Translations under genes and position numbers: made by a program
DNA from: Clostridiales bacterium
GTDB taxonomy: Bacteria; Bacillota; Clostridia; Oscillospirales; Oscillospiraceae
Reading direction: 5' to 3'
Assembly (NCBI GenBank): GCA_022787565.1
Contig: JALFVN010000009.1
Coordinates: 1 to 44,092 of the forward strand
DNA: 44,092 bases
The notes under the pieces: model-generated
What the model saw: only the letters and a program-made list of their open reading frames with translations
Databases searched by the model: none
What the model was told of the DNA's origin: nothing
In this document: one piece after another, positions 13,178-42,492 of the stretch
Numbering within the stretch: the first letter of the stretch is position 1
How the letters are laid out: each line of letters starts with the position of its first letter

Positions 13178-13269
13178 CTGTCTTTCTGAGGATCAAAGCG
13201 GCGAAGGCCTCCTTGCTCCTTCCGTTCTGTTCACGGGATTCTTCGCCGCTTCGCGGCTCAGAATGACAG
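13178..13269. repeat. CTGTC..CTGAG/CTCAG..GACAG dispersed palindromic repeat
   Basis: Starts CTGTCTTTCTGAG and ends CTCAGAATGACAG, so the ends are near-perfect inverted repeats around an inner GGGATTCTTCGCCG segment. It belongs to the same family as the tandem pair at 42298-42492. Repeats with TCATTCTGAG/CGAAGAATC are widespread in bacterial intergenic DNA. Confidence 0.75.
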
Positions 13270-13290
13270 CCAATGAAACGCCAAGGGACA

Positions 13291-13334
13291 AAAGATCCCG
13301 TATTCAGAAGGTTTTTTCTGAATACGGGATCTTT
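13291..13334. terminator. bidirectional terminator, left edge of surface locus
   Basis: A perfect 19-bp stem (13291-13309 with 13316-13334), loop GGTTTT, between convergent genes. The arm GATCCCGTATTCAGAAG recurs in the terminator at 23152-23212. Confidence 0.85.
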
Positions 13335-13349
13335 CACATTTTTATCCTA

Positions 13350-14486
13350 TTATTTCCCGTGCCTGCCGGAATGCTTCTTTTTCCGGTGCCGGGCAAAAAA
13401 CGCCGCTGCGGCAGCGAGAACCGCACAGGCGATCAGCAGGGCGAAAAACACGGTCCTGTTCCGGGCCTCTTCCCGGGCTTTTGCCGCGTTTTCCGCCGCA
13501 AGCCTTGCGCTCTCCTCGGCGGCAGCCTTCTCTGCGGCTTCTCTCTCCGCCTCTGCCTTCTGTACTTCCGCAAGCGCCAGCTGTTCGGCAAGTTTTTCCT
13601 GTTCTATCTGTTCTTCCTTTTCGGCGTACCGTTGATCCAGTTCGGCGCTGTAAGAGACCAGTTCCTCACAGAGCCTGCCGCAGAAGGCTTTCGCGTAATA
13701 ATAGCCAAAGTCTCTTGTCAACACCGTGACCAGGATGGGGGTATCCGTATAGACGATACCGGCGATATGGTTCACCTGCTCGCCTCCAATGGTCAGGGAG
13801 CCGAATTTCTGGGCAATAACGAGATCAGTCAGCTCATTCTGTCGGAGAAACTCGCCGGGCTGGGCCTGGGACATATAGTCGATCACCGAGGGATACTGGT
13901 CGGAATTGGCATACAGCTCCCGCAGAATGTCGATCAGGAAGCGGCAGGAATACTTTGGTGTTTCCTCCCAACTCAGGAAACCCTCAGGCAGTTCATCATC
14001 CGTCCAGCCTGCCAGCTTCTGCTCATTTTCCCTCACTTTAGGCCAGGTATAAAAATAACTGGCGGTAGTAAAAGCGCGGGTATTGTCGGAGTTAACCAGA
14101 CATTCCCGGAGCACTTCATCCGGTCCGCCCGCATAGTCGCCGATGGGGTTTTCACCGTTCAGCACGTCGTTTGCCAGCATCATCATCAGCGGAAGCTTGA
14201 AAACGCTGGCGGTATAATACCACTCGTCCCCGTAGTAAAACAGGGCCTCGTTGGTCTTGGTGTAGCAAAAGCCCACGCTGATACCGCAGTAATCGTCAGC
14301 TTCCCTTCCGAATTCCCGGATCAGAGCGTTTACGATTTCGGTAAACCCTTCCTCGTCCGCCACCAGGATCGGCTCATCCTCCTCCGGCAGCTCCGTCTCC
14401 GTTCCTTCCGCCCAAGCAGCCGGGGCAAGCAGATAGAGCATGGCCGCCGCGATAAAAAAGGAAAGCATTCTCGTTGCAAGTTTCAT
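13350..14486 (-). CDS. membrane-tethered serine hydrolase, class A beta-lactamase fold
   Basis: A 378-residue exported protein. Signal peptide 1-26 (ending AAWA). The catalytic domain (45-275) has the beta-lactamase/transpeptidase triad of motifs: SVFK (Ser94, Lys97), SDN (133-135) and KFG (227-229) in place of KTG/KSG. A charged coiled coil (about 285-343, rich in Ala/Glu/Lys) leads to a C-terminal membrane helix (346-365) and a basic tail, so the enzyme stands off the outer membrane face on a stalk. Possible roles are peptidoglycan carboxypeptidase-like activity or an inactive sensor; the KFG change argues against a standard beta-lactamase. It is the last gene of the six-gene operon, 9 bases after the glycosidase. 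Confidence 0.8.
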   Translation of the reverse strand: MKLATRMLSFFIAAAMLYLLAPAAWAEGTETELPEEDEPILVADEEGFTEIVNALIREFGREADDYCGISVGFCYTKTNEALFYYGDEWYYTASVFKLPLMMMLANDVLNGENPIGDYAGGPDEVLRECLVNSDNTRAFTTASYFYTWPKVRENEQKLAGWTDDELPEGFLSWEETPKYSCRFLIDILRELYANSDQYPSVIDYMSQAQPGEFLRQNELTDLVIAQKFGSLTIGGEQVNHIAGIVYTDTPILVTVLTRDFGYYYAKAFCGRLCEELVSYSAELDQRYAEKEEQIEQEKLAEQLALAEVQKAEAEREAAEKAAAEESARLAAENAAKAREEARNRTVFFALLIACAVLAAAAAFFARHRKKKHSGRHGK

Positions 14487-14495
14487 TGCCGCTCC

Positions 14496-15695
14496 TTATT
14501 TTTCCGGGATCGCCGTGGCAAAGTAAATAATGTCGCTCACGATCTGTTCACTGTTGTACTGCATAGGGTTGACCACCTGACCGTCCAGGATGATGACGCC
14601 GGTCTGTCCGCCGTCCAGCGTGTAAGCGTTGGGGCAGTCATGGTCCAGCATCACATCGGTGAGCTCCCTCAGCGTACAGCCCCACTTGCTGTATTCACTG
14701 TACGCGGAATTTGCGTTTACCGCCACGGTGAGGTAGTGGAGCGTCCCCATCTGGGCAATGGCCAGTCTGGGATAGTTATCTCCGATCTCCCCAAAGGAAT
14801 AAAATCCGGGGCAGACGTCTTCTCCCTCCGAGATCAGCACCGGGCCGAAGCAGAGCGAAAAGGAAATGTTATTTTCAGCGATAAACGCCTCAGCCGCTTT
14901 TTCGTCGGTGAAGCTGTTGGCTTTTTTCAGGATGAAGTCTCCCTCTTCCGTAACAAAGCACACATCGCAGCTGGGCACAAAGCGTTCAAGCTTTCCTTCA
15001 TAGACGCAGACGCCCGTCACCCGGGACCAGTGGTCATACAGATCAGCGCTGCTGGCGCAGACGGCGTTCACCTCTTTGGCCAGCTCCGAGGGGTAATCAT
15101 ACTGATTGCAGTCAAAGCAGTCCTGGACGATCTTCCTGCGAAGCTGGGATGCGTCGGAAACGAAGACCTCGCTGAAAGTACCCCAGCAGTTGCCCACCGG
15201 CTCATTCCAGACCAGCACCAATATGGACTCGTCCAGATAGTATTTCAGCGTCGCCCCTTCCACCAGGGGCAGCTCCTCGCTCCATACGGTCTCCTGATCG
15301 CCGATAAGCTGCTTTGCGTAAGCGGAATTGAGAAGCTTGCGAATTTCAGCGGGATCATCTGTCTCGCCGTAGCAGCGCTCATCCGGGACGTATCCGGCCC
15401 CGGCCCCCTCCGGGATCGCGTATTCCTTCCGCACATAGGAAAGCTTGCCGGGAAGGGCTTCTCTTCTCGCCTGCACCGCACTTTCCAGATCGGCCTGGGC
15501 GGTAAATTCCGTCAGCCCCTCCGACCAGGTATGTCCCGTCTCCTCACTGCTGATCCTGCGCAGGATCTCCGCAGGGGAATATTCCAGCAGCAGCGGAACG
15601 GCCAGAACCAGCAGCAGTACCGCAAGCAGGAAAAGGACAATAACCTGTACTGCGCTGCTGTTTTTTTTGCGTTTTTGCACTCTGCTCTCTCTCAT
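14496..15695 (-). CDS. phosphodiester glycosidase (NAGPA domain), membrane anchored
   Basis: A 399-residue protein with an N-terminal membrane anchor (about 15-40) and an exported phosphodiester-glycosidase domain (about 190-395). Typical blocks are EVNAVCASSADLYDHW, GVCVYEGK, GFYSFGEIGD and NAYTLDGGQTGVIILDG; the LDGG segment is the family hallmark. The founding member, mammalian uncovering enzyme, removes GlcNAc from a GlcNAc-1-phosphodiester. Bacterial members probably cleave sugar-phosphodiester bonds in envelope polymers. ATG 15695 overlaps the previous stop as ATGA, which decides this start over an in-frame ATG at 15734 that would overlap by 43 bases. Confidence 0.8.
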   Translation of the reverse strand: MRESRVQKRKKNSSAVQVIVLFLLAVLLLVLAVPLLLEYSPAEILRRISSEETGHTWSEGLTEFTAQADLESAVQARREALPGKLSYVRKEYAIPEGAGAGYVPDERCYGETDDPAEIRKLLNSAYAKQLIGDQETVWSEELPLVEGATLKYYLDESILVLVWNEPVGNCWGTFSEVFVSDASQLRRKIVQDCFDCNQYDYPSELAKEVNAVCASSADLYDHWSRVTGVCVYEGKLERFVPSCDVCFVTEEGDFILKKANSFTDEKAAEAFIAENNISFSLCFGPVLISEGEDVCPGFYSFGEIGDNYPRLAIAQMGTLHYLTVAVNANSAYSEYSKWGCTLRELTDVMLDHDCPNAYTLDGGQTGVIILDGQVVNPMQYNSEQIVSDIIYFATAIPEK

Positions 15696-16333
15696 TTGCT
15701 CTCGTCCGTCCTTCCGTTTGCCAGGATATTGCACAGCGCCTCAGAAAGGATCAGTTTCGGTGGCGTATCCATTGTGGTCTGAATGACAACGGTATCGGTC
15801 CGGAGATAAGCCTCCGCGTTTTCCATCCGTCCTGCCAGAACCTGGGCAAAAACCCTGTCCAGCACGTCCTGTCGGAAATTCAGCTCCTGGTCATAGATCT
15901 CCGCGGAACTTGCCGCTTCCTCCAGCTCCTGGTTCAGAATCTGCTGGATCTCCTCTTCCATGCCCTCTGTCAGCGCTGCGGCATCGAGCCAGGTAACAGA
16001 CACCGTGTTGGCCACACCCTCATTTTTGATGACCTGGGAGGACAGGATCTGATAGGAAAAACTGCTTCTGGCAAGCTCGCCCAGCTCCCCGGTATACATG
16101 CCGGCGGCGATGCTGTAATTTTCCGTCAGCGCCTCCACGGTCTGGGCATCTCCCGCGGAAAAGGCCCGGAAAAATTCGTCAACCGCAGCGCAGGATTGGG
16201 AAATCGCTGCCTGCTTTCTTGTCTCTGCCGGGGTGAAGGTCTCCCGGAAAAAGCCGATCCTGATGCCCAGGACGGCAGCGGCCAGAATGGCGGTCACCGC
16301 AATGGCAATGCTTAAAATCTTGTTCTTTTTCAT
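15692..16333 (-). CDS. exported membrane-anchored protein of unknown function
   Basis: Not recognised. A 213-residue protein with one N-terminal membrane segment (about 6-27) and an outside domain. Residues 45-130, with VDEFFRAFSAGDAQTVEAL and a later VSVTWLDAAAL, have the look of an NTF2-like/DUF4878-type fold found in many Gram-positive lipoproteins, but no Cys lipobox is present. The C-terminal half (130-213) is mainly helical. It is coupled by ATGA overlap to the phosphodiester glycosidase and begins 13 bases after the PIG-L gene, so an accessory role to those enzymes is the simplest guess. Confidence 0.65.
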   Translation of the reverse strand: MKKNKILSIAIAVTAILAAAVLGIRIGFFRETFTPAETRKQAAISQSCAAVDEFFRAFSAGDAQTVEALTENYSIAAGMYTGELGELARSSFSYQILSSQVIKNEGVANTVSVTWLDAAALTEGMEEEIQQILNQELEEAASSAEIYDQELNFRQDVLDRVFAQVLAGRMENAEAYLRTDTVVIQTTMDTPPKLILSEALCNILANGRTDESK

Positions 16334-16346
16334 CTTGCAAATCTCT

Positions 16347-17651
16347 TCAATCTTCGTTATACAGCTCTCTGGAGGTATTCTCCAGCAGATCGTTTTTCAA
16401 AACATCCTCGCCTATGGTACTCCGGTACAGGCCGAACACATGGCTGTCCTGGGTGCCGCCCTGCCTTACATAGCTGTAATTAACCTGTGTAACATGATAC
16501 TTCAGAGCCTGCACCGCTACCTCCATAGCGGTCTTGCCGTCAAAGGCATCCAGCGGTTTATCAAAATCCTCAATATAGATCTGATTCTCTCCATACAGAT
16601 GGATATACATTTTCTGGGTATCCCAGGCTCCGTAGGTCTCCGCGCTCTCCGGGAATTCACCGGCGTCAGCCGCCAGCCCCACAGCTTCCTTGAGACAGCG
16701 GCCGTTCAGTTTGTGTGTATTGTGGCCGTATTCTCCGTTAAGATCGTGCCCCACGACCACAAGGGGTTGATACTTGCGGATCATCTCCACCTGGAATCCG
16801 ATGAAGTTCTCCTCGCCGTAAAAGTTCTGGGTCTCATAATAAGAGTCGAACATCCGGTCCACCGCGTCGTAATTGATTTCGGGATAATAGCGCTCACCGG
16901 CGTACCAGAGGCCGTTTAACAGTTCATGGACCCTGTATACCCCGTCCCCGAACACATGGTTTGTCATGTAGACCACCTGGACCTTATAGCCCAGTTCGCC
17001 TGCATAGAGGGGAATGATACCGGCAAAAAAGCACCACTCGTCATCGGCATGGGTGGGGAACATCAGAATGTCCGCCTCGCCCTCCATCAGGGACCACTGC
17101 TGTACCCAGTCGGGATAATAGCCTTCGGTAAAGGCGTACAGCTCGCAGATGGCGGAATCCTCGGGCACCTTCAGATAGATCCTGTCCGTGGGCTCTTCCA
17201 GATCATAGCACTGGTGCAGAAACACCTGGTTTTCCACCGTCCGGTAGTTTTCGCCGTCGGTGCTCAGATACCACTCATCGGGCATGTTGTGCCACAGGAT
17301 ATACAGGCGGCTGAAGGGGGTCTCTGCGCTGATCTCCACAGGGGTATCCGCCATGATCGTCTGCACATAATACTGTGACCCGTCCAGCAGACCGCCGTTA
17401 CCCGGGGCTTGGAGACTGACTTCCTCCGCCTCAAATTCATATTCCGGTTCCGGCTCCGGCGTGACTTCCGGCGTTTCCTCCGGCAAAGGCTCCGGCAAAG
17501 GCTCCGGCGTCTCTTCGGGCAAAGGCGCTTCAGACCCTGCAGGGGCCGTCTCCGCCGGCAGCGGGGCCGGTTCCTCCCTGGTTTTACCGCAGCCGGCCAG
17601 CACAAGTAACAGCAAAAGCCCCGCGATCAGGATAACAAATTTTTTCTTCAT
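16347..17651 (-). CDS. PIG-L family deacetylase lipoprotein
   Basis: A 434-residue lipoprotein: lipobox LVLAGC with Cys21, then a Pro/Glu-rich spacer (about 25-75) that includes a tandem LPEPLPEE-type repeat. A beta-rich region (80-180) precedes the LmbE/PIG-L domain (about 192-420). Its metal motif is THADDE (His201, Asp203, Asp204; Ala replaces the usual Pro) with GHDLNGEYGHNTH (His302, His310, His313). Family members remove N-acetyl from GlcNAc-linked substrates with Zn. An exported, spacer-mounted version suggests action on an envelope glycan. ATG 17651 has GAGG upstream and is followed by a standard lipoprotein signal; longer readings have neither. Confidence 0.85.
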   Translation of the reverse strand: MKKKFVILIAGLLLLLVLAGCGKTREEPAPLPAETAPAGSEAPLPEETPEPLPEPLPEETPEVTPEPEPEYEFEAEEVSLQAPGNGGLLDGSQYYVQTIMADTPVEISAETPFSRLYILWHNMPDEWYLSTDGENYRTVENQVFLHQCYDLEEPTDRIYLKVPEDSAICELYAFTEGYYPDWVQQWSLMEGEADILMFPTHADDEWCFFAGIIPLYAGELGYKVQVVYMTNHVFGDGVYRVHELLNGLWYAGERYYPEINYDAVDRMFDSYYETQNFYGEENFIGFQVEMIRKYQPLVVVGHDLNGEYGHNTHKLNGRCLKEAVGLAADAGEFPESAETYGAWDTQKMYIHLYGENQIYIEDFDKPLDAFDGKTAMEVAVQALKYHVTQVNYSYVRQGGTQDSHVFGLYRSTIGEDVLKNDLLENTSRELYNED

Positions 17652-17673
17652 GATTATTCCTCTACTCCCTCGC

Positions 17674-19170
17674 TCAATACCAGGCCCAGCCGAAAAGCAC
17701 ATAATAGACAATATACTGCCAGGCAGAAAAATCAACCGTGATATCGCAGGACGAAGAGGCAAAGCCGTCCTCAGACGCGCAGATGATCTCAGCGCTCCCC
17801 CTGCCAACGGCGGTTACGGCGCCGTTTTCATCCACAACAGCCACATTCTCGTCGGTGGAATGCCACTGCACGGCCTTGTTTGCCGCGTTTTCCGGCAGTA
17901 ACAGCGCGCTCAGCTCCGTTTTCTGCTTATAATGCAGCGCAAGGCTGCTTTCCGAAAGCCGTATCTCTTCCGCTGCCACCAGCTTGTCCAGGATCACGCT
18001 CTCCAGCTGCTCGCCGCAGCGGGTGCAGTACAGCGCCCCCTCGCCCTGGCTGTCGTAGCTTGGCGGCGTGAGGACCGTCAGCTCCTCCGACGGCACATGG
18101 TACGGCAGAACATAGCTGTCTCTCCAGCGGTATCCGCAGGTGGTACACCTGTGCTCCGTGTAGCCGCAGTGATGGCAGTCCGCCTCAACCACAGTGTCCT
18201 CATATACCGGGGACGCGCATTTTTCCGGGGACAGCTCCGTGTCGTAGACAAATACTTCGTCTCTGACGAAACCGGACTCGTCGTTTTCCACACGGGGCGC
18301 CCAGTGGAACAGATCCTCACCCACCAGGGCCTCGCAATAGGCCCGGCGGTCGTAGTTCTTCTCGAAGAAATGGATGGCCCCGGCCACACGGTTGTGGTCT
18401 ATGGTCTTTTCCACATATTCAAACTGCATCCGGAAGCTCATGCCCACAAGACCGCCGCTGTGCACATAACCGTGGGTGGAAATATAGCCGTCGATCTCCA
18501 CGTCGTTATAGGACATGTTGCAAAGGCCGTTGGATTCCAGGCCGCCCAGATACATCTCGCACTTGGCGTTATCCGGATTTCTGTCGTAAAACAGCAGCTC
18601 GGCCTTCACACCGCAGTTTCGGATGGTGGTGTCGCCGAAGCCCACAACGCCGCCGACGCCCACGTTGGTTCCGCCGGCGTAGAGGCGTACTCTGCCTTCC
18701 AGCGTACAGTTTTCAATGACGGTATTGATGCCGTAACCCACAAGCATGGCGCAGAAGCAGTCCTCATCGCTGGTGATATCCACATCCACCCCCAGCAGGC
18801 TGAGATCTTTGATCACCGCGTCATTGGCCACGGAAAACAACGCGGCAAAGCGTGTTTCGTTGTACCGCTTCATGTTTCCGTCAAAGGTCAGCATGGTCTC
18901 TTCGGAAAGGCAGTCAATGCTCAGGTTGACGATGGTATGACCCGCACCGTCAAAGCTGCCGAAAAACGCCAGGGGCTGCCAGTCTACACCGGCCATGTCG
19001 ATGTCGCTGCAAAGAATATAAGTCCCGTAAGGGTCATCCCGGATCTGCAGAAGATCCTGGGCAGTATAGACATAATGGGTCTCCGTGCCCTCTGCCAAAG
19101 CCGTGGCGCCGGGCAGCAGAGTCAGGAATAACAGGGTTGTGATCAGAAGGAAAATGCTTTTTCGTTTCAT
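17674..19170 (-). CDS. exported beta-helix/Ig-like surface protein
   Basis: A 498-residue protein with a signal peptide (1-26, ending ALA). Residues about 35-320 form parallel-beta-helix/GLUG-like repeats (SDIDMAG, FGSFDGAGHTIVNLS, GGLVGMSF). A Cys-rich patch follows (about 335-390: CHHCGYTEHRCTTCG, CTRCG). A BIG2-type Ig domain covers about 405-485 (VAVVDENGAVTAVGRGSAEI). The C-terminus ends in a short aromatic hydrophobic stretch (WQYIVYYVLFGWAWY) that may embed in the membrane. It probably binds a surface polymer rather than cleaving it. Start and upstream stop overlap as TAATG, so it is coupled to the LRR lipoprotein. Confidence 0.78.
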   Translation of the reverse strand: MKRKSIFLLITTLLFLTLLPGATALAEGTETHYVYTAQDLLQIRDDPYGTYILCSDIDMAGVDWQPLAFFGSFDGAGHTIVNLSIDCLSEETMLTFDGNMKRYNETRFAALFSVANDAVIKDLSLLGVDVDITSDEDCFCAMLVGYGINTVIENCTLEGRVRLYAGGTNVGVGGVVGFGDTTIRNCGVKAELLFYDRNPDNAKCEMYLGGLESNGLCNMSYNDVEIDGYISTHGYVHSGGLVGMSFRMQFEYVEKTIDHNRVAGAIHFFEKNYDRRAYCEALVGEDLFHWAPRVENDESGFVRDEVFVYDTELSPEKCASPVYEDTVVEADCHHCGYTEHRCTTCGYRWRDSYVLPYHVPSEELTVLTPPSYDSQGEGALYCTRCGEQLESVILDKLVAAEEIRLSESSLALHYKQKTELSALLLPENAANKAVQWHSTDENVAVVDENGAVTAVGRGSAEIICASEDGFASSSCDITVDFSAWQYIVYYVLFGWAWY

Positions 19171-20657
19171 TATGCATAGCCTCTTTGCCATGACTTGTCA
19201 AAATCCAGTTTGTCCAGCGGGGAGTTATAGTTCCCATAGCCGATCTGCTCTCTCAGCAGAGCATAGCGTTCCGCATAGCTGCCGTCGGACAGCGTACGCC
19301 AGCCGAAAGCGGTCAGATCGTCGCCCTCTCTGAAGACGATCTCGCAGTCCGGGAGGCGCTGGACGATCTCCTCCTTCTGCGCGTAAGGGATGTAATAATC
19401 GTTGATGCCCCACAGGCGCTTCAACTCCGTCAGTCCGTACAGCGGGGAGATATCCTTTGCCGGAATAAGGCTGATGTTCAGATGCTCCAGCTTGGTACAG
19501 GACGCCAGCGGGGACAGATCCTTTACCTCGGTTCCGAATATCTCCAGATACTCAAGCTCCGGGCAGTTTGCCAGAGAAGAAATATCCTTAACGGCTGTAA
19601 GGCCGACAATGAGCACTTTGAGCTTGGGCATATTGGCGGTAAAGCTGATGTCCGTCAGCCACTCGTCATGCCCCAGGTCGATATATTCCAGATCCCGGCA
19701 ATAGTCCAGCACATGGCAGTTTTCATCCCGGACATACACAGACCAGAGAACCGTTGCATCCGTAAGAAGGCTGTCTGAGTAGAAGTGAACCCGCCAGGCG
19801 ATCCCCTTGTCCGGAAACTCGTCCCGCAGTTTACTAAGCTCCTCATAGGAGGGGCCGCAGTTATCCAGTACAAAGCGTTTGCACCCGGCAAGCAGCGGGA
19901 GAGCCATCCTGACCGTGTCCAGATCATCGTTGCCGAGACCTGCCTTTTCGTAAATGATCTCTTCCCTGTCCCAGCTCAGCTCCTGGCCAAAAAGGGTAAA
20001 GGCGCACTTGAGCTGAATGTTCTCCGGCAGCGCATCTCTCAGTGCCGCCAGTTCCTCCAGCGACCAGCCGCAGGAGCCGTCCTCCCGCAGCAGATTGACC
20101 GCAGACGCCTTGGGAAACAGTTCAGCGATGGTTTCCGCGCTGCGCAGGACATCTTCACTGAAGGGCGTGCCGCTCAGATCTATTTCAGACGCGTCGCTCC
20201 TGACCTTTTCGCCGGCAAAATCGGCATAATAGGAAAAATCCACCGCAGGACAGGCGTCTCTGACAGCCCTGATCTGTTCCGGGCCCAGAAGATCGTCAAC
20301 GGAGACCGATTTCAGGTTTTTGAAATACCGGCTGTAATGGCAAAAAGCCTCCACCATGTTCTGATCCATGGTCTCAAACAGAAGCTCCTCGTCTGTATTC
20401 CACGCAGTCACATCCCCTATGGCGATCTCATAGCGCACAGAGACCTGGGGATGGGCGGATATGTATTCCTCAATGGCGTCATAGCAGTCGCTGTTGACGA
20501 TCTGAAGTTCCTTCAGGCTTTTATATGCTTTCAGGTCAGAGATGGTCTCTGCCGTGACTTCGGTTTCAAGGCTCTCCAGCTTTGCTTTCCCGCCGCAGCC
20601 GGAAAGCATGAGCACAAGCAGCAGGGCGAATACGATTTTCCAGGTAATTTTTTTCAT
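19170..20657 (-). CDS. leucine-rich repeat lipoprotein
   Basis: A 495-residue lipoprotein with lipobox LMLSGC (Cys21). The C-terminal part (about 320-430) carries leucine-rich repeats of the bacterial type: LEYIDLGHDEWLTDIS, LKVLIVGLTAVKDISSL, LEYLEIFGTEVKDLSPL, LEHLNISLIPAKDISPL. The middle region (about 30-310) shows weaker repeats such as LKELQIVNS. LRR lipoproteins usually bind protein or glycan partners at the cell surface. It is the first gene of the six-gene minus-strand operon, divergent from the CotH lipoprotein gene across a 98-base gap. No convincing minus-strand promoter was found in that gap. Confidence 0.82.
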   Translation of the reverse strand: MKKITWKIVFALLLVLMLSGCGGKAKLESLETEVTAETISDLKAYKSLKELQIVNSDCYDAIEEYISAHPQVSVRYEIAIGDVTAWNTDEELLFETMDQNMVEAFCHYSRYFKNLKSVSVDDLLGPEQIRAVRDACPAVDFSYYADFAGEKVRSDASEIDLSGTPFSEDVLRSAETIAELFPKASAVNLLREDGSCGWSLEELAALRDALPENIQLKCAFTLFGQELSWDREEIIYEKAGLGNDDLDTVRMALPLLAGCKRFVLDNCGPSYEELSKLRDEFPDKGIAWRVHFYSDSLLTDATVLWSVYVRDENCHVLDYCRDLEYIDLGHDEWLTDISFTANMPKLKVLIVGLTAVKDISSLANCPELEYLEIFGTEVKDLSPLASCTKLEHLNISLIPAKDISPLYGLTELKRLWGINDYYIPYAQKEEIVQRLPDCEIVFREGDDLTAFGWRTLSDGSYAERYALLREQIGYGNYNSPLDKLDFDKSWQRGYA

Positions 20658-20694
20658 TTTGACTCCACTTCTGTTTTCGCTGCATGGTCCGTAA

Positions 20695-20723
20695 TTGACA
20701 TTTTTGCTCCTGAATGATATTTT
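20695..20723 (+). promoter_or_regulatory. sigma-A promoter of the CotH lipoprotein gene
   Basis: TTGACA, a 17-base spacer and TATTTT, with the ATG 33 bases beyond the -10. Confidence 0.65.
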
Positions 20724-20755
20724 CTATATGCATTCGACCCGAACCGGAGGAACAC

Positions 20756-23092
20756 ATGAACCATTTTTTACATAATAAAAGGGGAATAAGTCTCTTTGCG
20801 GCAGCGCTGTTCCTGCTTCTCACCGCCTGCGCAGCCCGGGATGCCCAGATGGCTGAGCCGGCCTTACCTGAGGAAACGGAAGCCGCCGGCGAGCTTATTT
20901 TCTATAATAAATCTCTCGAGATCAGCGAGGTCATGCTGCATAACAAGGCCACGCTCATGGACGGGGATGGCCATTTTCACCCCTGGATAGAGCTGCACAA
21001 TATGTCCGACGCCGATGCGGAGCTGAGCGGCTGGTCTCTCTCCGCCGGGGGAGACTCCTGCACGCTTCCCGATGTGGCCCTGGCCCCCGGAGAATACACG
21101 GTTCTCTTTCTGACCGGCTCCTCTCCCTGTGAAGGAACGGATGCCGCCGCTCTTACTCTGAAAGCTGAAAATACGCTTACGCTGACTGCGCCGGATGGAG
21201 AAGATGTCTTCTCCCTGGTCTGCACGGATACGTCCCCGGATATGTCCCTGGCAATGGATGAGGACGCCTCCTTCGGCTGCTCCGTCTACCCCACGCCGGG
21301 CTATCCGAACACCGACAGCGGATACTGCGCCTGGCAAAGCGGAAAAGCTGTGCCCGTTCCCGTTGCCATCAACGAAGTTTCTCCCGCCTCCGCCCTCTGC
21401 GAGGACTATGTGGAAATAAAAAACACGTCCGATTCCGACGTGAACCTGTCAGATTACTGTCTCTCCGACAGCTTCGGCAAGCTCTACCGATCTCCGCTGC
21501 CGGATATGCTGCTCTCCCCGGGAGAAATTGCGGTTTTTTATTGTGATGACGTCCTTGACTTCTCCCTTGACCCGGATGAGGAGGCCGTCTATCTTTCCAA
21601 CGGCTCCGGCTGTGTCGATTATCTTCCGCTGGCAAGCATCCCCGCCGGAGGAAGTGCAGGCCGGATCGACGGGGAGCCGGGCGTTTTTCTCTTCTCTTCG
21701 CCCAGTCCTGGGGAGGAAAATCCCGATGGCGCAAGACAGGTCTCCGCGCCGCCCGAGGTCAGCGTTCAGCCGGGAATATATGAAAAAATACAGGAACTGA
21801 CGGTAGAAATTCTCAGCCCATCAGTGGTTTATTATACAACCGATTATTCTTCTCTGTCAACCGACTGTTCGGTTTATTCCCAGGCCCTGACCCTTACGGA
21901 GACCACGGTGATCCGCGCCTTTGCCCGGGAAGAGGGCAAGCTTCCCAGCCCCACCGTCACCTTCAGCTATATCATCAACGAAGGGCTTTCCCTGCCGGTC
22001 ATCAGTCTTGTCACCGACTCCGGCGCCTTCCGCGATTTGAGCAAGACCGAGGAAATCTCCGGCAATCTCTCCTTTTTTGAAGAATCAGGGTCCTTTTCCG
22101 CCAACTGCGGCATCACGCTCAGCGGCAACAAGAGCCTGAACTACCCCAAGAAGAGCCTGAACATCAAATTCCGCAGCTGCTATGGTCCCTCCACCGTAAG
22201 TTATGACCTGTTCGGCGCGGAGGTAAAGGAATTCAGTTCTCTGAATATCCGGGCCGGGCAGGATTATGTGTACAGCTTTATCAAAAACGAGCTGTGGCAG
22301 GACCTGTGCCTGGAAGCGACGGACAATGTCCTCTCCCAGCACAGCCGCTACTGTGCCATGTTCTTCAACGGCGAATTTTATGGCATTTACGCCCTGAAGG
22401 AAAACATGTCCGCTTCCCTTTACGCCTCGGTCAAGGGCGTTGACAAGGACGACGTGGAGGTGGTGAAGCTGCCCGCCCAGCGGGGGAGCAGCTTTTATGA
22501 GGAGGTTGAACTGTACTGCCAGCAAAACGATCTCAGCGACGAGGAATGTTACGCCCATCTTGCTGCGCTGATCGACATGGACAGCTTCGTTGATTACTAT
22601 GTTGTCATGGGCTTTACCGGCAATAACGACCTTTACAGCAATGTTCGCCTGTACCGGTCGGAGAAAAACGGGTTGAAGTGGTCTCTGGCCTTTTATGATC
22701 TGGACCTGGCCTCCAGGGATCCGGCCCATGCCTACACAAACCTCACTTCCCACTATGATTTTGACGGCAGCCCGACCCTGGAGCTGATGTACAGAAAGCT
22801 GCTTCAAAACAGCGATTTCCGCCAGCTTGTGATCGAGCGCTTCTCCGCTCTTTACGGCAATGTGCTCTCCAACGAGAATCTTGTCAACAAAATTGAAGCG
22901 TACAGAGCGATCCTTACGCCGGATATGCAGCGGGATCACGACCGGTGGTATCTGGAAACCGCCGTTTGGGAACGCTGTCTGAACAATCTGGCCGGGCTCT
23001 TCACCAAAGAGGATTGGCAGGGCCGTGCTTTGGATAACTTCTGCCGGATCCTGAACATCAGCGCGGAAGAAAGAGCGCTTTACTTCCCCTGA
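20756..23092 (+). CDS. CotH-kinase-domain lipoprotein with lamin-tail domains
   Basis: A 778-residue lipoprotein, lipobox LLTAC with Cys25. Domains in order: lamin-tail-like (about 53-160, ISEVMLHN...HPWIELHN), a second lamin-tail-like (about 202-318, INEVSPAS...YVEIKNTS), a chitobiase/hexosaminidase C-terminal-type Ig domain (about 332-405, VVYYTTDYS...VIRAFA), and CotH (about 412-770, ITLSGNKSLNYPKKSLNIKF, NGEFYGIYALKE, FYDLDLAS). CotH of Bacillus is a secreted protein kinase acting on spore coat; most CotH proteins in anaerobes are uncharacterised. GGAGG 5 bases before ATG 20756 sets the start. It is divergent from the LRR lipoprotein and probably part of the same surface system. Confidence 0.85.
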   Translation: MNHFLHNKRGISLFAAALFLLLTACAARDAQMAEPALPEETEAAGELIFYNKSLEISEVMLHNKATLMDGDGHFHPWIELHNMSDADAELSGWSLSAGGDSCTLPDVALAPGEYTVLFLTGSSPCEGTDAAALTLKAENTLTLTAPDGEDVFSLVCTDTSPDMSLAMDEDASFGCSVYPTPGYPNTDSGYCAWQSGKAVPVPVAINEVSPASALCEDYVEIKNTSDSDVNLSDYCLSDSFGKLYRSPLPDMLLSPGEIAVFYCDDVLDFSLDPDEEAVYLSNGSGCVDYLPLASIPAGGSAGRIDGEPGVFLFSSPSPGEENPDGARQVSAPPEVSVQPGIYEKIQELTVEILSPSVVYYTTDYSSLSTDCSVYSQALTLTETTVIRAFAREEGKLPSPTVTFSYIINEGLSLPVISLVTDSGAFRDLSKTEEISGNLSFFEESGSFSANCGITLSGNKSLNYPKKSLNIKFRSCYGPSTVSYDLFGAEVKEFSSLNIRAGQDYVYSFIKNELWQDLCLEATDNVLSQHSRYCAMFFNGEFYGIYALKENMSASLYASVKGVDKDDVEVVKLPAQRGSSFYEEVELYCQQNDLSDEECYAHLAALIDMDSFVDYYVVMGFTGNNDLYSNVRLYRSEKNGLKWSLAFYDLDLASRDPAHAYTNLTSHYDFDGSPTLELMYRKLLQNSDFRQLVIERFSALYGNVLSNENLVNKIEAYRAILTPDMQRDHDRWYLETAVWERCLNNLAGLFTKEDWQGRALDNFCRILNISAEERALYFP

Positions 23093-23151
23093 GCCTCATC
23101 CGCAGGTACAGGGAAATCCGCAGAGAATACACCGGGCAGCATGAAAAACAA

Positions 23152-23212
23152 AAAAAGACAAAGGATCCCGTATTCAGAAGAGAAACCTTCTGTTTACGGG
23201 ATCCTTTGCTGC
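23152..23212. terminator. bidirectional terminator, right edge of surface locus
   Basis: A stem of about 22 bp with two mismatches (23159-23180 with 23187-23208), with an A-run to its left, between convergent genes. Its left arm GATCCCGTATTCAGAAG is identical to that of the terminator at 13291-13334. Confidence 0.8.
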
Positions 23213-25166: not shown

Positions 25167-26300
25167 ATGGAAATATATACGGTAAGCCCGGGTGACAGTT
25201 TATGGCGCATTGCCAGACGCTACGGCACTGACGCGGAAGAGCTGGCCCGCATCAACCAGCTCAATGATCCCTCCCGCCTGGTGTCAAGGCAGGCCTTACT
25301 TGTCCCCTCGGCTGAAACAGGCAGCCGTCCCCCCATTGAGGTGAACGGCTATGCCTATCCCAATATTGCCCGGAACGTGTTAGACGAGACCCTGCCCTAT
25401 CTCAGCACGCTCTGCCCTTTCAGCCATCATATGACCGTCACCGGGGAACTGATCCCCATTCCCGACAGCGCCATGGTGGAGGCCGCCCGGGCAAACGCTG
25501 TGGCTCCCCTGCTGACCGTCACCAATCTGGGGGAAAGCGGCGGCTTTTCCGGAGAAATCGCCCACGCGGTATTCACCGACCGGCAGGTGCAGGACCGCTT
25601 TTTCGAAAACCTGTTCTCCGCCCTGCATCAGAAGCCCTATTACGGCGTGAATTTCAACATTGAGTACGTTTTTCCCTATGACCGGGACAGCTACAGCCAG
25701 TTTCTCCACCGGGCTTCCGAAGCCCTCCACGCCCAGGGCTATTTTCTCAGCACCGCTATCGCCCCCAAGGAGAGTGACAGCCAGGAGGGGATCCTCTACT
25801 CCGCCCACGACTACGAAGCCCACGGCCGCTGGGCCGACCGGGTGATCATCATGACCTATGAATGGGGCTATACCTACAGCGCTCCCCAGGCGGTGTCGCC
25901 GGTGAACCGGGTGAGGCGGGTGCTGAAATACGCGGTGACACAGATTCCCGCCGGGAAGATTCTGATGGGTTTTTCCAACTATGGCTACAGCTGGAATCTG
26001 CCCTGGCGGCAGGGTGACGCGGCAAAGGTCATCTCCAATTCTGCCGCCATGAACCTGGCCGTCTCCGTGGGGGCGGAGCTGAAATTTGACCAGACCGCCC
26101 AGGCCCCCTTTTTCAGCTACACCGACAGCGCCGGTCAGCGGCATGCGGTTTGGTTTGAGGACGTGCGCAGCGTGCAGGCCCGGCTTCAGCTGGTGAAGGA
26201 ATTCGGCCTTGCAGGAATAAGCATCTGGACCATCAACCAGCTTTTCCGCCCCGCCCTTCTGCTCTTGCAGAGCATGTACAGCGTGGAGAAGCTCATTTAA
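25167..26300 (+). CDS. LysM plus GH18 glycosidase, spore cortex-lytic type (YaaH-like)
   Basis: A 377-residue protein. One LysM domain (2-45, YTVSPGDSLWRIARRYGTDA) is followed by a GH18 domain (about 55-370). It has the same plan as Bacillus YaaH/SleL and related spore glucosaminidases that cut cortex muramic-delta-lactam peptidoglycan during germination. The GH18 active-site segment reads GVNFNIEYV: the catalytic Glu is kept, but Asp residues of the DxxDxDxE signature are Asn. There is no signal peptide, as in spore-loaded enzymes. ATG 25167 follows AAAGGATG; the longer frame to 25077 lacks a site. Spore association is inferred. Confidence 0.82.
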   Translation: MEIYTVSPGDSLWRIARRYGTDAEELARINQLNDPSRLVSRQALLVPSAETGSRPPIEVNGYAYPNIARNVLDETLPYLSTLCPFSHHMTVTGELIPIPDSAMVEAARANAVAPLLTVTNLGESGGFSGEIAHAVFTDRQVQDRFFENLFSALHQKPYYGVNFNIEYVFPYDRDSYSQFLHRASEALHAQGYFLSTAIAPKESDSQEGILYSAHDYEAHGRWADRVIIMTYEWGYTYSAPQAVSPVNRVRRVLKYAVTQIPAGKILMGFSNYGYSWNLPWRQGDAAKVISNSAAMNLAVSVGAELKFDQTAQAPFFSYTDSAGQRHAVWFEDVRSVQARLQLVKEFGLAGISIWTINQLFRPALLLLQSMYSVEKLI

Positions 26301-35058: not shown

Positions 35059-35456
35059 AGCTTGTCAAAAAAGTCCTGATCGGACTTTTTTGACCGCTTC
35101 AGCCGCCGAGCGTTTTGAGGAATTCAAAACGCTGCTTCGCCCAAAAAGCCTGAAAAATCAGGCTTTTTTGCGGCGGGTTATTGGATTGCGAGTATTGCGC
35201 TTCGTCGCTGCCTGTGGCAGATGAAGACGATGCGCAATTTCCGCAGCCGCGCTGTTTGCGGGCCGTCGTGAAACAGGCCTGCAAACAGCATTGCGGCAAG
35301 GAGAGCAAGGGGTCTTGGTCTCTCTGAGGCTCGGTCACGCTGCGGCTCTGACATGCCACCGGCATGTCATTCACTACCGCAGCGTCGCTTTGCTACCCCT
35401 CGCGCTCCCCCGCGGCTCTATTGTCGGCAGCAGAAGCACAGTTATTTGACAGTCCC
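35059..35456. repeat. multi-hairpin dispersed repeat, copy 2 (long form)
   Basis: A 398-base non-coding element. Bases 35060-35181 match 1-122 at about 91%, and the last ~70 bases match 130-204 more loosely. About 200 extra bases (35186-35390) carry further inverted repeats: 35194-35200/35232-35238, 35251-35264/35276-35289, and 35338-35345/35377-35384 enclosing 35349-35357/35361-35369. Ends TGTCAAAAAA (35063-35072) and TTATTTGACA (35442-35451) are inverted repeats with one mismatch. Both flanks are the same 40-base terminator. No protein is supported. Confidence 0.78.
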
Positions 35457-42297: not shown

Positions 42298-42389
42298 CTG
42301 TCATTCTGAGGAACGCAGTGACGAAGAATCCCCTGAACAGAACACCGGGCGTACCCGGACGGGATCCTTCGCTGCGCTCAGGATGACCG
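42298..42389. repeat. CTGTCATTCTGAG dispersed repeat, tandem unit 1
   Basis: CTGTCATTCTGAGGAACGCAG...GACGAAGAATCC...GGGATCCTTCGCTGCGCTCAGGATGACC. Outer and inner arms are inverted repeats, with a central CCGGGCGTACCCGG hairpin. Nearly identical to the next unit. Confidence 0.82.
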
Positions 42390-42400
42390 CGAAAAACAAA

Positions 42401-42492
42401 CTGTCATTCTGAGGAACACAGTGACGAAGAATCCCGTGAATAGGACACCGGGCGTACCCGGACGGGATCCTTCGCGGCGCTCAGGATGACAG
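42401..42492. repeat. CTGTCATTCTGAG dispersed repeat, tandem unit 2
   Basis: Second direct copy, 103 bases downstream of the first, differing at a handful of positions and ending CTCAGGATGACAG. It stops 8 bases before the end of the M20 peptidase gene. Confidence 0.82.

Follow-up and report, generated by a model that had tools for sequence, protein, structure and literature searches.

A seven-gene locus and the question it raises

Do adjoining genes for exported enzymes, repeat-rich proteins and a CotH kinase encode products that work together at the cell surface, or have they only gathered in one place? The question is raised by seven genes of an uncultured gut Clostridiales bacterium that lie in a stretch of 44,092 nucleotides (the window), which is the entire contig C4 of a draft genome of 2.63 Mb in 77 contigs. 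We found that members of these families recur next to one another and as fused proteins in relatives, which supports a functional link among them and suggests a joint function on a cell-surface sugar polymer. We put the probability that the locus encodes an exported, envelope-anchored protein set editing one surface glycan at about 0.5, with gene order and gene fusion as the evidence that points to joint action.

Six of the genes form a run on the minus strand (13350-20657), transcribed in the order LRR (leucine-rich repeats), BIG (beta-helix and Big_2 domain), PIGL (PIG-L-type deacetylase), UNK (no Pfam family), PDG (phosphodiester glycosidase) and SH (serine hydrolase). Their junctions range from -4 to +22 bp, with overlaps of 1 bp at LRR/BIG and 4 bp at UNK/PDG and gaps of 22 bp at BIG/PIGL, 13 bp at PIGL/UNK and 9 bp at PDG/SH, spacing that is consistent with a single operon. 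The seventh gene, COTH, diverges from LRR across an intergenic gap of 98 bp, and its start is more likely at 20756 than at 20714. The original prediction, made from the DNA letters, had named these seven genes and described every product as exported or anchored. All seven are open frames where it had placed them, and a simple hydropathy and motif scan, used in place of a signal-peptide program, found a hydrophobic N-terminus serving as signal or membrane anchor in each. The motif scan also detected lipoboxes in LRR (LSGC), PIGL (LAGC) and COTH (LTAC), and the hydropathy scan an additional membrane segment at the C-terminus of SH. Pfam backs six of the seven gene names, with PIG-L slightly below its curated cutoff.

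Recurrence of the families in the genus

Recurrence was examined in a sample of 102 genomes of the genus, with a first draw of 37 and a second of 61. In the first draw every one of the 37 genomes had PDG-type matches (on average 5.7 per genome among the matches listed), and in the second draw LRR was found in 61 genomes, SH in 60, COTH in 59 and UNK in 47. Because these families are large, their adjacency must be judged cautiously. BIG is rarer, with 24 copies in 21 of the 102 genomes, and the stretches around all 24 were examined, several of them short contigs of 3-9 kb (L183 and L191 about 3.5 kb).

At five of these 24 copies (the window, L180, L182, L312 and L319, thus five of the 102 genomes) LRR precedes BIG, PIGL follows it and SH belongs to the run. 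SH is separate in the window and fused to BIG in all four relatives, where LRR stands at the equivalent place before the fused gene and PIGL. Both PIGL and LRR lie beside BIG in excess of chance by rough estimates with hand-set densities and non-independent genomes, which gave 0.03 expected PIGL genes and 0.47 expected LRR genes beside the 24 BIG genes, against five observed for each. SH lies within 3 kb of BIG at 4 of the 24 copies when counted strictly, the window SH being 3.2 kb away. The five operon BIGs form one clade with support 96/96, which would fit a single origin of the arrangement and its later retention, although the window BIG shares only 43-45% identity with its four operon relatives. 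The BIG and PIGL trees kept rows of 400 or more.

The set nearest to that of the window is L312, in which UNK+PDG, LRR, SH, SH+BIG, PIGL and LRR follow an asnS-like gene on a single strand. PDG was also found within 5 kb of PIGL in 6 of the 24 other PIGL loci examined, these loci being part of the strong PIGL matches. The window's exact gene order was not seen around any of the 23 other BIG copies in the genus, and at L184 BIG adjoins VTC-domain and Cthe_2159 proteins instead.

Fusions and BIG loci beyond the genus

Gene fusions also tie the families together. SH and UNK form a single protein in 12 loci and UNK is fused to PDG in 19 proteins (both counted by hand from our own HMMs, which also supplied all UNK calls in relatives), and SH is fused to BIG in 4 proteins (hand count, backed by Pfam). 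In a Lachnospiraceae locus (L288), PIG-L and BIG are one protein of 734 residues with a NAGPA gene next to it. With these four kinds of fusion and the gene orders, SH, UNK, PDG, BIG and PIGL are tied by fusion and LRR by order.

Wider relatives of BIG were drawn from the best 80 of 213 matches, of which 72 had gene calls; several were the same contigs as the genus loci. A PDG-type gene directly follows BIG in six of the 72 (L255, L257, L259, L262, L268 and L271), all named Ruminococcus or Clostridia, with Pfam confirmation for L255 only. In L258, outside the genus, BIG comes after LTD, VTC and DUF4956 proteins. This locus had been considered as a CotH-VTC-DUF4956-BIG arrangement, which was rejected when its "COTH" HMM label proved to reflect lamin-tail domains only, leaving LTD-VTC-DUF4956-BIG. 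Pfam confirmed VTC neighbours at L184 and L258 only.

The original prediction held that these genes belong together, and that finding relatives with the genes scattered and never together would argue otherwise. The families instead recur adjacent and fused. What was not conserved is the exact seven-gene set.

CotH-containing runs in relatives

COTH belongs to a second type of run, made up of COTH, PDG, a small open reading frame (62-69 residues) and LRR. Such runs occur in at least 8 of the 61 genomes (L320-L327; places chosen by eye from the coordinates of the matches listed, which for PDG covered 37 genomes of the genus). Among the variants, L326 ends at a contig edge, L324 has no small frame called and in L321 two PDGs precede LRR. 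Seven of the eight runs continue with another PDG-type gene and with a gene of 459-493 residues (Pfam for L321), and a separate run, L334, reads CotH-CotH-PDG-LRR. CotH also diverges from a PDG...PIGL run in two genomes (L203 and L205) and, in genome G013 (L038), from a run with UNK-PDG whose PDG is the nearest to that of the window. A quick PDG tree placed most PDGs of COTH-PDG-LRR runs, together with the PDGs that neighbour PIGL, in one clade and the window PDG with UNK-linked PDGs in another. It used rows of at least 90 bits, a threshold that excluded the PDG next to L182 and the third NAGPA genes with their weak scores.

Two further observations concern these runs. At L321:7302-13609, CotH is followed in one run by three NAGPA proteins, an LRR protein and a 464-residue protein of no known family. 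At L330:7200-12149, an LRR-PDG pair is followed by a 69-residue gene, a 231-residue gene and a histidine kinase, a possible sensor link.

Among 116 genomes of the order that lie outside the genus, 13 carry this type of CotH, in 14 regions, two of which lacked usable gene calls.

Domains and conserved motifs of the proteins

Do the proteins retain what their family names promise? The window PIGL scores 25.8 bits against PIG-L (PF02585), below the curated cutoff of 28.2, which its homologues in L319 (29.0 bits) and L288 (36.9 bits) exceed. It keeps the motifs HADDE (HxDDE) and GEYGHxxH, the latter with the distal His, which we take to be the metal-binding residues. The H, D, D and E are invariant in all alignment rows with letters there (34 of 36) and the last His is kept in 36 of 36, and the profile of this alignment (A2) matches MshB.

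PDG scores 42.5 bits against NAGPA (PF09992; cutoff 25), and its profile (alignment A3) matches solved NAGPA structures. The D and Y of NGDFY, the R and the LDGG are kept in all 61 rows, the window included. In the window NGDFY reads SADLY, a change from N to S shared by 8 of the 61 rows (the window among them), and the position is not N in 25 of 61. Since N is replaced so often but D, Y, R and LDGG never are, the change is not read as decay, and an inactive window PDG was not adopted as an explanation.

SH has all three motifs of its family (Beta-lactamase2, PF13354), SxxK as SVFK, SDN as SDN and KxG as KFG, with the S and K of the first and the K of the third each present in 22 of 23 rows. 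At E<=0.001 its profile (A4) matches beta-lactamase-type chains only (4 sequences, the best being 3cjm, a putative beta-lactamase). COTH reaches 125 bits against CotH kinase (PF08757; cutoff 23.8) and also carries LTD in two stretches and CHB_HEX_C_1 by Pfam; a single-sequence search at E<=0.01 returned no solved relative.

BIG combines a beta-helix with GLUG motifs, conserved Cys pairs and a Big_2 Ig domain (Pfam and alignment A1) and ends in a short helix rich in aromatic residues that the hydropathy scan did not call a membrane segment. In Foldseek, the beta-helix of its AF2 model (pLDDT 88) matched part of IgA1 proteases, and Big_2 domains were matched as well; a viral fold search returned mainly Big_2 domains of phage tail proteins. 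The AF2 model of UNK (pLDDT 87) consists of an anchor helix and a helix-and-sheet domain, with weak Foldseek matches that include ketosteroid isomerase, PBP5 and CaMKII hub chains. Several of the matches are NTF2-like proteins, so that UNK is possibly, on this weak ground, an NTF2-like domain.

Proposed function and competing explanations

If the proteins act on one polymer, LRR and BIG would bind or hold it, and it is plausible that the LRR, Ig and lamin-tail domains do so. PIGL would strip N-acetyl groups from an amino sugar, PDG would cleave a sugar-1-phosphodiester, SH would hydrolyse an acyl or peptide-type bond, UNK might couple SH and PDG at the membrane, and the divergent CotH kinase might phosphorylate a partner protein or the matrix. 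We infer each of these substrates, and likewise the cell's own surface polymer as the target.

Several results weigh against the locus being a set for editing one surface glycan. PIGL, LRR, SH and PDG are absent from the examined stretch at 19 of the 24 BIG copies, and with the exact order found at none of the 23 others, the window appears to be one arrangement of a shuffling module. The window PIGL falls outside the group of the four other operon PIGLs (AU p 0.0017, rising to 0.051 when one long-branched row is omitted), a hint but no proof of separate recruitment. The window PDG lies in another clade than most PDGs of COTH-PDG-LRR runs, so the PDG links hold at the level of the family. Outside the genus, none of the 12 annotated CotH regions has a labelled PDG or LRR beside CotH, as judged with a gene caller trained on this genome and HMMs trained on the genus, both weaker on distant or AT-rich DNA. 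None of the 353 fold matches of UNK was significant at E<=0.001. Pfam identified no biosynthetic or transport gene in the set of seven. Stealth_CR2 is missing from 58 of the 61 genomes, this one included. Stealth phosphotransferase is an enzyme that might make a sugar-phosphate polymer; it was considered for that role here and rejected, as it is present in only 3 of the 61. The original prediction of a GlcNAc-phosphate polymer thus comes down to the family names and stands as a possibility; its proposal that the families co-occur and are functionally linked is supported.

Could the same pattern arise without joint function? Exported members of large surface-protein families might gather passively at a tolerant spot, and the many copies of LRR, PDG, SH and COTH in the genus, the widely varying gene orders and the lack of the exact set in any other BIG neighbourhood would all fit. 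Four kinds of fusion among these very families, and orders that recur even between BIGs of such low identity, make this unlikely. We consider it similarly improbable that the locus is a wall-repair unit in which a carboxypeptidase-like SH works with PIGL and PDG on peptidoglycan or teichoic acid: SH does carry SxxK, SDN and KxG, and PBP5 chains are among the weak fold matches of UNK, but the significant profile matches of SH are of the beta-lactamase type only and none of the seven genes has a peptidoglycan-binding Pfam domain.

Foraging is somewhat harder still to credit. The set would then strip deacetylatable, phosphodiester-linked glycans of other microbes, plants or the host for food. NAGPA-type cleavage would fit phosphomannans, and many named BIG relatives come from ruminant guts according to record titles. 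Against this, the seven genes include no transporter, regulator or ordinary glycoside hydrolase (a LysM-GH18 gene lies nearby, at 25167), and most of the products stay attached to the membrane instead of being set free. Least probable to us is a variable set for surface recognition or antagonism like the NAGPA/TelC-type surface proteins of Bacillota. Ligand-binding domains do adjoin a NAGPA enzyme in reshuffled gene orders, for which the accessible part of PMC12419801 offers a parallel; yet no TelC-type or NlpC/P60 Pfam domain occurs among the seven, and PADLOC gave only two weak partial matches, for which reason a defence system was also rejected.

Editing of one surface glycan remains our preferred reading. 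A bolder version, which we offer as speculation and regard as doubtful, is an undescribed modular system of gut Clostridia in which one NTF2-like domain and one beta-helix protein would be interchangeable couplers, bringing three enzymes (a phosphodiester glycosidase, a PIG-L deacetylase and a class-A-type hydrolase) to one phosphate-containing polymer, and CotH would phosphorylate the scaffold to switch or assemble it. If the families cooperate, this points to a surface polymer of rumen and gut Clostridia that is unstudied and may contain phosphodiesters. CotH kinases would gain a setting beyond the spore coat, and PDG, extracellular PIG-L and Beta-lactamase2, family names whose meaning is uncertain, would join one testable pathway. 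The fused proteins SH+BIG, PIGL+BIG and UNK+PDG offer single molecules in which joint action can be tested.

Coordinates and surroundings of the locus

Similar terminator-like hairpins bound the locus on both sides (Table 1). Insertion as one block between hairpin repeats was considered and is not supported, since the arm TCTGAATACGGGATC has 10 exact copies in the genome and the neighbour genes in L217 are ordered differently. The promoter-like site before COTH, found by consensus scan, is weak evidence because 5 such sites were found in the region against 4.8 expected.

Table 1. Genes and other features of the locus, in window coordinates
Feature	Position	Strand	Description	Evidence
LRR	19170..20657	-	Leucine-rich-repeat lipoprotein, first gene of the run	LRR_4 E 2e-11; LSGC
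BIG	17674..19170	-	Beta-helix/Big_2 protein with signal peptide	Big_2 E 8.5e-13 and GLUG
PIGL	16347..17651	-	PIG-L-type deacetylase lipoprotein with Pro/Glu linker	PIG-L E 1.7e-5
UNK	15692..16333	-	Membrane-anchored, possibly NTF2-like	No Pfam family; AF2; fusions in relatives
PDG	14496..15695	-	Membrane-anchored phosphodiester glycosidase (NAGPA)	NAGPA E 1e-10
SH	13350..14486	-	Class-A-like serine hydrolase with signal peptide, C-terminal stalk and membrane segment	Beta-lactamase2 E 5e-14
COTH	20756..23092	+	Lipoprotein with lamin-tail, chitobiase-C and CotH kinase domains	CotH E 5e-36, LTD, CHB_HEX_C_1
Hairpin 3' of SH	13291..13334 (within 13276-13334)	.	Terminator-like, arms TCTGAATACGGGATC	20 pairs
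Hairpin 3' of COTH	23164..23203 (within 23146-23203)	.	Related hairpin	Same arm, 0 and 2 mismatches
Promoter-like site for COTH	20695..20723	+	TTGACA-17-TATTTT	Consensus scan

Other repeats were seen in the window. Two 90-nt copies of CTGTCATTCTGAGG..., 94% identical, lie at 42298-42490, and a related inverted copy at 13224-13269. A 133-nt direct repeat (1-133 and 35060-35192) is 89% identical across 35 kb, with one copy at the contig end. The LysM-GH18 gene spans 25167-26300, beyond an adjoining M3 peptidase gene, and the same pair adjoins UNK-PDG loci in L055, L056 and L073.

Recurrent neighbours were also noted in relatives. A class II tRNA synthetase gene (464-472 residues; Pfam for L045 and L180, by size elsewhere) directly precedes UNK+PDG, PDG or LRR in many of L040-L054, L180 and L312. 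A divergent homologue of LGT (prolipoprotein diacylglyceryl transferase) follows PDG in UNK-PDG/SH+UNK-PDG loci, at L055:10467-11474 and L069:8304-9293, with genes of similar size at that place in other loci (Pfam for L055 and L069 only).

Comparison with known systems

The original prediction knew of no described system with this set, in line with the literature searched: a search of the open literature for these families together gave no paper, in related searches no title or abstract start described the set, and the accessible parts of papers on related systems describe none. One close comparison is the Gram-positive Pel operon, which CotH, polyphosphate polymerase, DUF4956 and DUF4832 accessory genes adjoin according to the accessible part of PMC7112168. 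The two are alike in that CotH stands beside exported polysaccharide functions, there in Clostridia and streptococci, and BIG homologues have neighbours of this kind at L184 (VTC, Cthe_2159) and L258 (LTD, VTC, DUF4956). They differ in that the seven genes of the locus include neither VTC nor DUF4956 nor Pel genes, with no VTC polymerase or DUF4956 in ten other scanned window genes either, and in that the window adds PIGL, PDG, SH, UNK and LRR.

Two groups of surface proteins, as described in the portions available of their papers, share the use of NAGPA. In Bacillota, proteins with a NAGPA and prok-TelC core combine the enzyme with variable ligand-binding domains at the surface (PMC12419801), as the window does; in the window, however, these are separate genes, no TelC domain is seen, and PIG-L and beta-lactamase-like enzymes are present instead. 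The ShfP radiation, in which NAGPA is fused to adhesion domains, likewise mixes LTD, Ig and NAGPA in surface proteins, whereas its core enzyme is a calcineurin-like phosphoesterase (PMC11188070). With the spore coat module cotB/cotH/cotG of Bacillus subtilis, as presented in the part of PMC7821199 available, the window has the CotH kinase family in common, its own CotH being a lipoprotein with lamin-tail domains. SH, finally, shares SxxK, SDN, KxG and a profile match with class A-type serine beta-lactamases (3cjm), to which it adds a C-terminal stalk and a membrane anchor.

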